A stretch of 32,964 nt of DNA. Origin: Thermoproteales archaeon (GTDB lineage: Archaea; Thermoproteota; Thermoprotei; Thermoproteales; Thermoproteaceae). Under the pieces are notes generated by a model. It searched no databases, was not told where the DNA came from, and was given only the letters and a program-made list of their open reading frames with translations. The DNA is taken from assembly GCA_027002815.1 (NCBI GenBank), contig JALWZH010000160.1, positions 1 to 32,964 of the forward strand. Reading direction: 5' to 3'. Made by a program: the position numbers and the translations under genes. Shown one piece after another: positions 2,124 through 10,835 of the stretch (within the stretch, counting starts at the first letter, position 1; each line of letters opens with the position of its first letter).

Positions 2124-3923
2124 CTACTCGTAATAGTAGTATTCGCCCGTCTGCTTCTGTTCCCTGTCGAGGACGCTGCCGGGCTTGTTTATACGCGGCC
2201 TGTAAGTCTTGGGATCCCTGCGAAAAGTGACGTCCATGTACTTCAGGAACGCGTTCATGCCACTCCTGACGTCCATGGGGCCCAACGCGTGCCCCTCCCT
2301 GGCCGGCGTCCCCAGGAAGGGCATGATTGAGGTGGACATGTAGTCCACCATGGCTATGTCGTGCTCCACCACTATGGCAGCGGACTCGCTTTCCTCTATT
2401 ATCCTCCTAATTGTGCGTGCCACCCTTATCCTCTGCTCAACGTCAAGGTACGCCATGGGTTCGTCCAGTATGTACAGTGTGGCCTTCCTCAACAGGGACG
2501 CCGCCAACACCACGCGTTGCAGCTCTCCCCCCGAGAGCTCGCCAATGTCCCTCTCCATTAGGGGATCCAGGAGCAGCCCGGAGGACACGTCAGGCCATAT
2601 CGGGTTCCCCGAGTAGTCCCCCACCTCCCTCAACATCCACGTCCTAACTGAAACTCCCCTGTTCCTGACAGCCAGGTCCCTGATGTACTGCGGCTTGTAG
2701 CTGACCCTCACATCGCCCATCGGCGTGACGTGGCCCTCGTCGGGCTCCACCTCTCCGGCAAGCATCCTGACGAAGGTCGTTTTGCCTATGCCGTTTGGCC
2801 CCACCACGCCGAGCACCTCTCCCCGGTATATTGTCCCAGCCTCCACTACCAGCTTGAAGTTCCCCATGGCCTTGAACAGTCTCTCCCATGAAACGAGCGC
2901 CCTGGACCTCTCGGCCTTCCTCTCGGGAGGACGCCTGTGGAACTGTATGGAGTAGTCCCTGATCTTCATGTTCTCGGAGGTCAAGTATCCCTGCAGGTAC
3001 TCGTTTATGCCCTCCCTGGCACCGCGCGGGTGCGAGACTATGCCGTAGGCCCCCGGCTTCCCGTATAGCAGGACCACGCTGTCGGCAACGTAGTCCAGGA
3101 CTGCCAGGTCGTGTTCTATAACCACTACGTACTTGTCTGGGTCCGCAAGGCCCTTTATGGCGTCGGATACCCTCATCCTCTCGTATATGTCGAGGTGTGT
3201 CGTGGGCTCATCGAAAATGTATATGTTGCCTCCCCTCAGCATGGCGGCGGCAACAGCAACCTTCTGCAGTTCCCCCCCAGATAAATTGCCCACGTCCCTA
3301 TCCATGATATGTTGCAGGCCAAGCCTTTCCACGACCTCCCTCAGTGCCTCCCCCTCACCCAGCCTAGAGAGCAGGTCCGCCACCCGTCCCCTGACGTATA
3401 ACGGTATAAGCTCAACGTACTGGACCTTGTGCACCGGCCTCAGTTTCCCATCGTAAAGGGACTTGAGGTACACCTGCATTTCGGTGCCCCTGAACATGCG
3501 TACGACCTCGTCCACCCCCACATCCCCATCGGCCCTGCAAAGGTTTGGCCTCAGCTCGCCGGCTAGTATCCTCGCTATGGTGGTCTTGCCAAGGGCGTTT
3601 TGGCCCATTACGCCCACGACAGCGCCCCTCTTCATGAGGGGCAGCCTGTAAAGCTTGAAGCCGCTTGGGCCGTACCTGTGCACGCACTCGCCCTCGAGCT
3701 CCTCCGGCATGTTCACTATCGTTATGGCGTCGAAAGGACACTTATGGACACATATGCCACATCCAACGCACAGCACCTCGCTTATGATGGGCCTACCCAC
3801 ATCGTGGTCGAACCATATGGCCCTTTTTCCCCCCTTGACAATTGGGCAGAAACGTATGCACGGCTGTCCACCACACTTGTCGGGCTTGCACAGATCTCTA
3901 TCGATTACTGCGAGTCTCCCCAC
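2124..3923 (-). CDS. Ribosome recycling ATPase ABCE1 (RNase L inhibitor homologue)
   Basis: Soluble twin-ATPase that splits 70S ribosomes after termination together with aRF1 or aPelota. Length 599 aa, as usual. The N-terminal iron-sulfur domain has both clusters: C12, C17, C22, C26 and C52, C55, C58, C62. NBD1 follows, with Walker A at 107-114 (GQNALGKT), signature LSGGELQ and a Walker B ending DEPTTHLD. NBD2 has Walker A GPNGIGKTT, a second LSGGELQ and DEPMAYLD. The C-terminus carries the basic hinge region and ends in a tyrosine run. NBD1's Walker A has Ala where Gly is usual (GxNGxGKT). The start is GTG at 3923, 7 nt after the stop of the zinc-ribbon gene and preceded by a G-rich SD-like stretch, so the two are one operon. 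Family assignment is secure. Confidence 0.97.
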   Translation of the reverse strand: MGRLAVIDRDLCKPDKCGGQPCIRFCPIVKGGKRAIWFDHDVGRPIISEVLCVGCGICVHKCPFDAITIVNMPEELEGECVHRYGPSGFKLYRLPLMKRGAVVGVMGQNALGKTTIARILAGELRPNLCRADGDVGVDEVVRMFRGTEMQVYLKSLYDGKLRPVHKVQYVELIPLYVRGRVADLLSRLGEGEALREVVERLGLQHIMDRDVGNLSGGELQKVAVAAAMLRGGNIYIFDEPTTHLDIYERMRVSDAIKGLADPDKYVVVIEHDLAVLDYVADSVVLLYGKPGAYGIVSHPRGAREGINEYLQGYLTSENMKIRDYSIQFHRRPPERKAERSRALVSWERLFKAMGNFKLVVEAGTIYRGEVLGVVGPNGIGKTTFVRMLAGEVEPDEGHVTPMGDVRVSYKPQYIRDLAVRNRGVSVRTWMLREVGDYSGNPIWPDVSSGLLLDPLMERDIGELSGGELQRVVLAASLLRKATLYILDEPMAYLDVEQRIRVARTIRRIIEESESAAIVVEHDIAMVDYMSTSIMPFLGTPAREGHALGPMDVRSGMNAFLKYMDVTFRRDPKTYRPRINKPGSVLDREQKQTGEYYYYE

Positions 3924-3930
3924 GTGCCCC

Positions 3931-4203
3931 CTAGTCCTCCCTCTCCGATTCGGCTTCCCTGAGGTTTTCCAGGAGCTGCTTCCTGTACTCCTCCAGTTCC
4001 TCGGCGTCGATCGTGGACTCGTACTTTTCCCCTATCATGACGCCACGCCTCTTGTCCTCGCCCACAGTGCTCTTCTGGTGATACGCGTCGCGCACCTTGT
4101 CGGTTATCTCCTCAACATGGCCACATTTGGGACACCGCAACACGTTCCTCTCGTCGACCTTGGCCGGCATCATGAGCGCCCCGTCCTTGGGACAGAACTT
4201 CAT
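3931..4203 (-). CDS. Small zinc-ribbon protein like the N-terminal domain of TFS/Rpb9
   Basis: A 90-aa protein. The N-terminal C4-C7 pair (KFCPKDG) and a later CPKCGH pair at about 24-27 form one zinc ribbon of the kind at the N-terminus of archaeal transcript-cleavage factor TFS (RpoM). The C-terminal TFIIS-type ribbon with its catalytic Asp-Glu hairpin is absent; the remaining roughly 60 residues are charged and helical. It therefore cannot be assumed to stimulate transcript cleavage. It could bind RNA polymerase through the Rpb9-like ribbon, or be a ribosome- or ABCE1-associated factor, since it is the first gene of the ABCE1 unit. A TATA box at 4224-4235 lies about 26 nt before the ATG. 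Zinc-ribbon call is firm; function is open. Confidence 0.7.
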   Translation of the reverse strand: MKFCPKDGALMMPAKVDERNVLRCPKCGHVEEITDKVRDAYHQKSTVGEDKRRGVMIGEKYESTIDAEELEEYRKQLLENLREAESERED

Positions 4204-4223: not shown

Positions 4224-4235
4224 CATATATATACT
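4224..4235 (-). promoter_or_regulatory. TATA box of the zinc-ribbon/ABCE1 unit
   Basis: Minus-strand sequence AGTATATATATG, one of the best TATA matches in the window. It is centred about 26 nt upstream of the ATG at 4203, predicting a leaderless transcript. Confidence 0.7.
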
Positions 4236-4320: not shown

Positions 4321-4326
4321 AAAAAA
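4321..4326 (-). terminator. T-tract terminator after the acidic microprotein gene
   Basis: Six consecutive T on the minus strand, 13 nt past the TAA of the 29-residue gene. Archaeal RNA polymerase commonly terminates at such U-runs. It would give a transcript of only about 100 nt. Confidence 0.5.
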
Positions 4327-4338
4327 GAGGTTAGTGTT

Positions 4339-4428
4339 TTACCACTCTTCCTCCTCCTCTTCCCACTCCTCAAATTCCTCGAACTCCTCCTCTTCCCACA
4401 GCTCTTCCTCCATTAGGAATGGGCGCAT
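4339..4428 (-). CDS. Acidic, tryptophan-rich 29-residue microprotein (unrecognised)
   Basis: Not a family I recognise. The minus strand from ATG at 4428 reads MRPFLMEEELW and continues for 29 codons to TAA. Of the 29 residues, 17 are Glu (all after residue 6), 3 Trp (11, 22, 29, the last being C-terminal) and 3 Phe (4, 16, 19); the only basic residue is Arg2. Net charge is about -16. Support for a real gene: a TATA-like box at 4448-4457 centred about 24 nt before the ATG, which is the spacing seen at neighbouring genes, and a T6 tract just downstream at 4321-4326. A second in-frame ATG at 4413 would give 24 residues. It lies between and independent of the zinc-ribbon/ABCE1 unit and divergent endonuclease V. 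It could form a helix with aromatic residues on one side, act as a nucleic-acid-mimicking or basic-protein-binding peptide, or be the marker of a small RNA. Function unknown. Confidence 0.5.
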   Translation of the reverse strand: MRPFLMEEELWEEEEFEEFEEWEEEEEEW

Positions 4429-4447
4429 GTGTGCCCCAACTGTGGTC

Positions 4448-4457
4448 TATTAAAGCA
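4448..4457 (-). promoter_or_regulatory. TATA box of the acidic microprotein gene
   Basis: Minus-strand GCTTTAATAG centred about 24 nt before the ATG at 4428. The spacing matches the other leaderless promoters here and favours 4428 over the internal ATG at 4413. Confidence 0.55.
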
Positions 4458-9883: not shown

Positions 9884-10263
9884 AGGCGCCTTCACGTTGC
9901 TGGGCCTCGGGGCAAAGGCCCAACAGACACCCCCACGGCTTCACGCTGGCCAGGCCCGGGACGGACGACACGTGTCTGGCAGCAACACGAACGCTGGGGC
10001 GTTGCTGTCCCCGCGGCTCGACGCATGTGGGGGCCCACAGTTCCCGGCAGCCAAGGACACGTTTAACAGTCCTACATCGCCGCGGCCGGAACGTCGCCGT
10101 TCCAAGCGGGACTTGGTACGGTTCAACAGGTGTGGGCCGCCTACAGGGCGCTGTATGGCGTTGGACGTGGGCCTACAGCCATGCCCGTCAAGTAGAGACT
10201 AGCCGTAGAGACGTCCAGACAACGGTGGCAGGCTGGGACTCGCCGTGAAACCCCGATGCGCCT
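9884..10263 (+). ncRNA. Candidate structured RNA in a 558-nt gene-free stretch (strand uncertain)
   Basis: Between 9705 and 10262 I find no protein gene; the only frames are 60-100 codons, overlap each other and resemble nothing. The stretch is instead unusually rich in perfect inverted repeats: 9901-9907/9916-9922 (7 bp), 9924-9930/9972-9978 (7 bp), 9980-9986/10001-10007 (7 bp), 10026-10030/10035-10039 (5 bp), 10088-10093/10098-10103 (6 bp), 10102-10106/10112-10116 (5 bp) and 10150-10159/10171-10179 (9 bp with one bulge). AGGCGC (9884-9889) could pair with GCGCCT (10258-10263) to close the whole. Possible plus-strand TATA-like boxes are at 9789-9796 and 9844-9851. I looked for SRP helix 8 (CCGGAAGGGAGCAG) and RNase P core motifs on both strands and found neither. 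It may be an undescribed RNA, a very divergent known one, or decayed DNA. Exact ends are guesses. Confidence 0.3.
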
Positions 10264-10784
10264 CAAACAACCGATATTTTTAAAAGCGAGAATATGTCGT
10301 CCTCCCTCACCACGCTTATGCCTGTCCGTGTTGGGAACATGTCCAAGAGCACTATCTTGTCGGGCCTAGTCAGGTTGACCTTGCGCTCTATCCGTGACGC
10401 CACGGCCGATATTATGGACGCCCTGTCGTATGCTATTCCCCTTTTACGGACCTCAACCTTATACGTCTCTTCCCTACCTATACTCGCCTCGGCCATCTCC
10501 GCGGCACGCTCAGCAACAGCATCGAGATCGGTCTTGGCCACGTCCATTATGGGGACGATCTTGAGCACGAAGCGGGGGACATAGTACCTCGAGAGAACCA
10601 CGTCCCTTACCATGCGCGTGAACTGTACGGGGTCCCCCTCTACCCTGCCAGTAAGTAGCCCGTCAAAGCCTGTGAACCATATGGACGCAACCCTAACTCC
10701 AATTATGTCGCCGAGCCTCCTCAACTCCTCCATGCACGCCCGTTCCTTCCTCCATCCTGTACTTACGACCAGGTTAAACGACAC
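10263..10784 (-). CDS. THUMP domain protein
   Basis: A 173-aa protein whose C-terminal half is a THUMP domain, an RNA-binding fold that docks on the tRNA acceptor end: the block KVEVRKRG, the helix with ASRIERKVNLTRPDKIV, and a final strand-like LDMFPTRTGISVV. The N-terminal half (LVVSTGWRKERACMEEL) resembles the stand-alone archaeal Tan1/THUMP proteins, which in eukaryotes assist N4-acetylcytidine formation in tRNA. No catalytic domain is attached, so it would be an adaptor. Start: the TATA box at 10804-10813 sits about 24 nt before a GTG at 10784, making a leaderless GTG start. A longer frame runs to 10829 but would begin upstream of the promoter. The 3' end borders the structured stretch. 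Confidence 0.8.
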   Translation of the reverse strand: MSFNLVVSTGWRKERACMEELRRLGDIIGVRVASIWFTGFDGLLTGRVEGDPVQFTRMVRDVVLSRYYVPRFVLKIVPIMDVAKTDLDAVAERAAEMAEASIGREETYKVEVRKRGIAYDRASIISAVASRIERKVNLTRPDKIVLLDMFPTRTGISVVREDDIFSLLKISVV

Positions 10785-10803
10785 GCGTGGGCTGCCGGCA
10801 CAA

Positions 10804-10813
10804 GTATAAAAAG
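10804..10813 (-). promoter_or_regulatory. TATA box of the THUMP gene
   Basis: Minus-strand CTTTTTATAC centred about 24 nt before the GTG at 10784; it identifies that codon as the start. Confidence 0.65.
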
Positions 10814-10835
10814 ATGGCCGTCCCCCCAAACCCGT

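Follow-up and report, generated by a model that had tools for sequence, protein, structure and literature searches.

The window, by which we mean the whole 32,964-nt stretch of DNA analyzed, carries on its minus strand a 29-codon microgene, with a short zinc-ribbon gene and the gene for the ribosome recycling ATPase ABCE1 downstream (Table 1). The encoded peptide, MRPFLMEEELWEEEEFEEFEEWEEEEEEW, has 29 residues, of which 17 are Glu, 3 are Trp (positions 11, 22, and 29), and 3 are Phe (positions 4, 16, and 19), with Trp as the last residue. The ORF list bears out the frame and composition given in the original prediction, including aromatic residues at 11, 16, 19, 22, and 29, to which Phe4 can be added; the TATA-like box proposed about 24 nt upstream and the T6 tract proposed 13 nt past the stop codon were likewise located. 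A Glu/Trp segment of this composition occurs once in the window, whereas 40 first-order Markov sequences averaged 0, so a composition of this type is not due to chance. In a genome of the same genus (G001), the protein is identical and the microgene differs by a single synonymous base change; the 36 nt 5′ of the microgene are unchanged and the T6 tract is kept, while the flanks have clearly diverged. Endonuclease V is 83% identical between the two genomes. The zinc ribbon matched TFS_arch over positions 1 to 60 of 101 (33.6 bits, under the cutoff of 64.75). A full TFS is encoded elsewhere in this genome (G000:C55:8318-8638), and a short TFS-like ribbon again adjoins ABCE1 in several families.

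Table 1. Features of the microgene and the adjacent ABCE1 unit in the window
Feature	Coordinates	Strand	Basis and remarks
Microprotein gene	4339..4428	-	29 codons plus stop, MRPFLMEEELWEEEEFEEFEEWEEEEEEW; ORF list, identical G001 protein, family of 116 cores
TATA-like box TTTAATA of microgene	4448..4454	-	Centered ~23 nt 5′ of ATG; inside 36-nt block unchanged in G001
T6 tract, likely transcription termination signal	4321..4326	-	Starts 13 nt past microgene stop; conserved in G001
TATATATAT box of separate zinc-ribbon/ABCE1 unit	4225..4233	-	TATATATA conserved in G001
90-aa zinc-ribbon protein, TFS N-terminal part only	3931..4203	-	Pfam Zn_ribbon_RPB9, E 4.9e-6; between microgene and ABCE1
ABCE1/RLI ribosome recycling ATPase	2124..3923	-	NF009945, 851.5 bits; conserved downstream neighbor of microgene family

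Substitution patterns indicate that the microgene is a genuine protein-coding gene. Of 15 Thermoproteaceae orthologues (from Pyrobaculum and its relatives), 13 allowed a gap-free comparison over 18 codons, and all 499 of their 499 pairwise base differences fall at codon position 3, with 0 at positions 1 and 2; 475 of the codon differences are synonymous and 24 are nonsynonymous. Together with the frame kept in G001 between diverged flanks, this confinement to third positions argues for a real protein gene. A TATA-like 8-mer starts 27 to 28 nt before the ATG in 15/15 Thermoproteaceae orthologues (two of them with only 5/8 matches), a spacing that favors the first ATG over an internal one, and T-runs follow the stop codon in all Thermoproteaceae orthologues examined. 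The microgene is therefore probably leaderless, with the layout of an independent unit in Thermoproteaceae, which supports the proposal of an independent leaderless unit for these archaea.

Related genes were found across the phylum. Searched as a DNA pattern, EEWEEE was present in 67 of the 81 class genomes, including 41 of the 43 good-quality ones, with a reversed-pattern control being rare; of 397 genomes from the phylum Thermoproteota, 223 had it. A few of these matches fall within larger proteins. The C-terminal signature EEEEW-stop (four acidic codons, Trp, and a stop-like codon) was present in 166 of 299 genomes, some chance matches included. Named loci with the microprotein include Pyrobaculum oguniense, Pyrobaculum sp. 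WP30, Thermocladium, and Thermofilaceae bins. A check for frame-breaking changes in relatives turned up none that speaks against the gene, and the frame is preserved across the phylum; the microprotein is conserved in most Thermoproteota families sampled. In a Thermocladium modestius draft (L132:2945-3205), the end of the frame, EWGGGIL.., departs from that of the close relative L133 (EWEEEF, then stop); the difference is a single additional G, which may be a sequencing error.

Family proteins are 20 to 80 aa long. The 116 distinct Glu/Trp cores collected contain 67.8% Glu, 13.1% Trp, 3.8% Phe, and 3.5% Asp, a composition that is partly a selection effect since the cores were chosen for acidity and aromatics. 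Spacing and C-terminal residue were not selected for. Aromatic residues are mostly spaced 3 to 8 apart, with spacings of 1 to 2 making up 3%, versus 33% in shuffled cores, and the last residue is W in 88 cores, F in 11, L in 7, E in 6, N in 2, I in 1, and D in 1 (W, F, L, or I in 107). The family thus follows a simple grammar of single aromatics between acidic runs with an aromatic residue or Leu at the end.

The original prediction knew of no named family, and the libraries searched agree: the window protein had no Pfam or NCBIfam match, its best PHROGs match was PHROG 4816 at an E value of only 0.073, the window sequence had no Rfam match, and a Pyrobaculum orthologue had no match among PDB sequences, although HMMER may score low-complexity Glu/Trp sequence too low. 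No such protein was described in the open-license literature searched, and the family is, as far as these searches indicate, unnamed. A viral origin was rejected after the stricter pattern EEWEEEEEW gave no match in viral contigs. AlphaFold2 predicted a single helix for the Pyrobaculum orthologue (residues 3 to 31, pLDDT 91.6); we do not take this model as evidence of a stable helix, and it is questionable whether poly-Glu would form a helix at neutral pH. The earlier suggestion of an aromatic-lined helix suits Thermoproteales (W12/W19/F22/W26 in Pyrobaculum); given that the aromatics of other groups are 4, 5, or 8 apart, a shared helical face does not characterize the family. The idea that all members form one amphipathic helix was accordingly discarded.

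The gene had been described as lying between the ABCE1 unit and endonuclease V. Neighbor clustering at 134 microprotein loci showed that endonuclease V is incidental, being absent from the recurrent neighbor clusters, and that ABCE1 is the conserved neighbor. ABCE1 was by far the commonest, at 64 loci, downstream and on the same strand; a THUMP protein lies divergently upstream at 35 loci, and a TFS N-terminal-like zinc ribbon lies between the microgene and ABCE1 at 17. Unlike in these relatives, the THUMP-like protein of the window (10263-10829, minus strand) is separate from the microgene. The microgene lies <2 kb upstream of ABCE1 on the same strand in 29 families by script and additionally in f35, for a total of 30, which do not represent 30 independent events because of shared descent. 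By hand count, ABCE1 is <2 kb downstream on the same strand in 24 of the 36 families sampled via the microprotein alone; the remaining families were sampled via ABCE1 and are biased towards linkage. The order of the microgene directly upstream of ABCE1 is thus recurrent in 30 families, and we infer that it is ancestral.

In the following, Sulfolobaceae-, Desulfurococcaceae-, Vulcanisaeta-, Thermofilum-, and Nitrosopumilaceae-like are presumptive family labels. The gap to ABCE1 is 40 to 48 nt in five of the six Sulfolobaceae-like genomes examined (f31), 52 to 74 nt in f20, f21, f30, f32, f38, and f54, and 109 to 185 nt in most of f15. In Desulfurococcaceae-like f16, the microgene is ≤1.4 kb from ABCE1, in either orientation, at five of seven loci. 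In Thermoproteus/Pyrobaculum, Vulcanisaeta-like, and Thermofilum-like (f5) genomes, the microgene lies away from ABCE1 yet is equally conserved; it also lies away in several further families and is unlinked at 15 of 17 f1 loci. At the ABCE1 loci examined, no microgene was near ABCE1 in Nitrosopumilaceae-like f17, f53, and f24, in f41, or in part of f22. Across whole genomes, the microprotein pattern is seldom found in f17, f53, and f24, which have ABCE1. Since ABCE1 occurs without a nearby member in these three families and in part of f22, the microprotein is not essential for ABCE1 everywhere. In one f22 genome (L261:346-3123, genus g38), the ABCE1 frame is 925 aa long, its Fe-S region being interrupted by intein-like domains (Intein_splicing and Hint_2, both below cutoff), and several more genomes of g38 have similar long frames.

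Various larger proteins bear fused Glu/Trp tails as well: a LysW-like zinc ribbon, a further zinc finger protein, PhoU/TrkA_C regulators, and two unknown proteins of the Pyrobaculum type. Three f36 loci (L215, L216, and L217) encode a LysW-like zinc ribbon whose long C-terminal Glu/Trp tail has W as its last residue; the ribbon scored above the PF21344 cutoff in the one tested. Paralogous proteins from one Pyrobaculum-type genome (G007; L150:3047-3424 and L151:2680-3033) have a microprotein copy at the end and no Pfam domain. Tails of the EEWEEE type were found in L104, L112, and L163, the first and last of which look alike, while L112 has PhoU and TrkA_C domains. Considering that like tails are fused to several other proteins, the Glu/Trp module may be a general docking tag, with the ABCE1-linked peptide being one use of it.

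Our preferred reading, which we hold tentatively as quite possible though short of probable, is that the microprotein is a flexible acidic-Trp peptide that acts in trans and has ABCE1 and/or the 30S subunit as its partner when ribosomes are split or recycled. As suggested by the linkage to ABCE1 and the analogy to eIF3j, the free peptide would bind ABCE1 and/or the 30S subunit and, once bound, could assist splitting or the post-splitting state. Its regularly spaced Trp and Phe side chains would dock in hydrophobic pockets, its Glu stretches would hold basic surfaces, and the C-terminal Trp would be a key contact. Action in trans is probable because the microprotein persists with its own promoter where ABCE1 lies elsewhere, and it is also supported by the Glu/Trp tails fused to other proteins. 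In eIF3j, a hydrophobic pocket takes up the conserved Trp52 of an N-terminal acidic motif, and nearby acidic residues are required for binding (PMC2824034). HCR1 was found in complexes with RLI1/ABCE1, and hcr1 deletion is suppressed by high RLI1 dosage (PMC3836723); work on the archaeal 30S-ABCE1 complex cites eIF3j as an ABCE1 helper in recycling (PMC7196836). A broader version, about which we are more doubtful, is that the family constitutes an archaeal ribosome-recycling cofactor, spread through the phylum and not named before, in which a peptide of 20 to 80 residues cooperates with ABCE1 through an acidic-Trp code and represents an eIF3j/Hcr1-type motif as a stand-alone gene.

It is unlikely, in our estimate, that the microprotein is instead a nucleic-acid mimic or an acidic chaperone for OB-fold, chromatin, or ribosomal proteins, following DSS1/Sem1-like logic. 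Aromatic side chains combined with negative charge would suit such a function, as would the information-processing neighbors (THUMP protein, TFS-like ribbon, and ABCE1), and the link to ABCE1 would then reflect co-expression with a translation operon; ABCE1 synteny may indeed stem from co-expression instead of physical partnership. However, the DSS1/SEM1 Pfam profile had no match in seven members at E values up to 10, free microproteins gave chance-level Pfam matches at most, and the recurrent proximity to ABCE1, including in rearranged genomes such as those of f16, is left unexplained. No finding points to the chromatin or nucleic-acid-mimic function raised in the original prediction, whereas synteny points to translation.

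A rather improbable alternative is that the microgene encodes an ABCE1 leader peptide, with translation of the Glu run destabilizing the ribosome, sensing splitting or Mg status, and setting ABCE1 expression in cis. Its position 40 to 185 nt upstream of ABCE1 in many families would be suitable. Acidic nascent chains are reported to destabilize ribosomes (PMC9718836), and ribosome pausing is reported to be modulated by an ABC-F protein in a paper where acidic residues are a recurrent term (PMC11282234). Such destabilization needs neither a C-terminal Trp nor regular spacing, however, and like tails are fused onto other proteins. In the window, moreover, a T6 tract follows the microgene and a separate TATA box precedes the ABCE1 unit, and Pyrobaculum/Thermoproteus, Vulcanisaeta-like, and f5 genomes conserve the protein at sites distant from ABCE1. 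The microgene lies outside the 5′ leader of ABCE1 in the window and at 15 of 17 f1 loci, while its position in other families would allow an upstream ORF.

We give still less weight to an adaptor for iron-sulfur insertion into ABCE1, whose C-terminal Trp would be read by the assembly machinery as for Lto1 and the eukaryotic CIA tripeptide. ABCE1 does have Fe-S domains, and Trp ends 88 of 116 cores, but we know of no archaeal counterparts of Cia1 and Met18. The Yae1-Lto1 adaptor is needed for Rli1 maturation and the C-terminal Trp of Lto1 is critical, but the motif was reported to be missing from the archaeal homologues compared (PMC4523923, PMC10623007). The tripeptide [LIM]-[DES]-[WF] was found in 0/116 cores, with position -3 being Glu in 115, which rules out a CIA targeting tripeptide by sequence. 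A chance low-complexity ORF or a noncoding RNA, as short length and very low complexity might suggest, is hardly credible and was ruled out, provided that the orthologue set is correct, by codon substitutions confined to third positions and by the lack of an Rfam match, conservation across the phylum also standing against it.

The microprotein is strikingly simple, with a near two-letter code under strong purifying selection, and belongs to a widespread Thermoproteota family of tiny proteins that can easily be missed in annotation owing to filters on length and low complexity. Should it work with ABCE1, archaea would gain a recycling accessory factor, and ABCE1 assistance outside eukaryotes would be directly testable in Sulfolobus, given the short distance to ABCE1 in most Sulfolobaceae-like genomes examined.

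Several known systems share features with the microprotein. LysW combines a zinc ribbon with an acidic tail that has Trp near the C terminus (EDWGE), as does the f36 ribbon with its Glu/Trp tail; the free microprotein differs in having no ribbon and ending in W. DSS1/Sem1 is small, acidic, and Trp/Phe bearing and binds partners via charge and aromatics, but DSS1 contains both Asp and Glu as well as a C-terminal helix, and the microprotein has no Pfam match to it and a different gene context. Lto1 shares a C-terminal Trp and a link to ABCE1, while the microprotein has no deca-GX3 domain and none of the 116 cores follows the tripeptide rule. Compared to eIF3j, a protein of ~260 aa whose C-terminal part is folded and which has eIF3b as a partner (to our knowledge, no eIF3b is known in archaea), the microprotein is free, 20 to 80 aa long, and almost pure Glu/Trp, with no folded eIF3j-type C-terminal domain. 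The eIF3j profile PF08597 had no match in seven family members at E values up to 10 and none in 81 whole genomes, nor did it match in the control genomes. Whereas eIF3j/Hcr1 is functionally and physically linked to ABCE1/RLI1 and the small subunit, the link of the microprotein to ABCE1 is one of gene order. No sequence homology was detectable; the resemblance is compositional, a conserved Trp set in an acidic stretch with cores here of 68% Glu and 13% Trp, and would bear on the mode of action.
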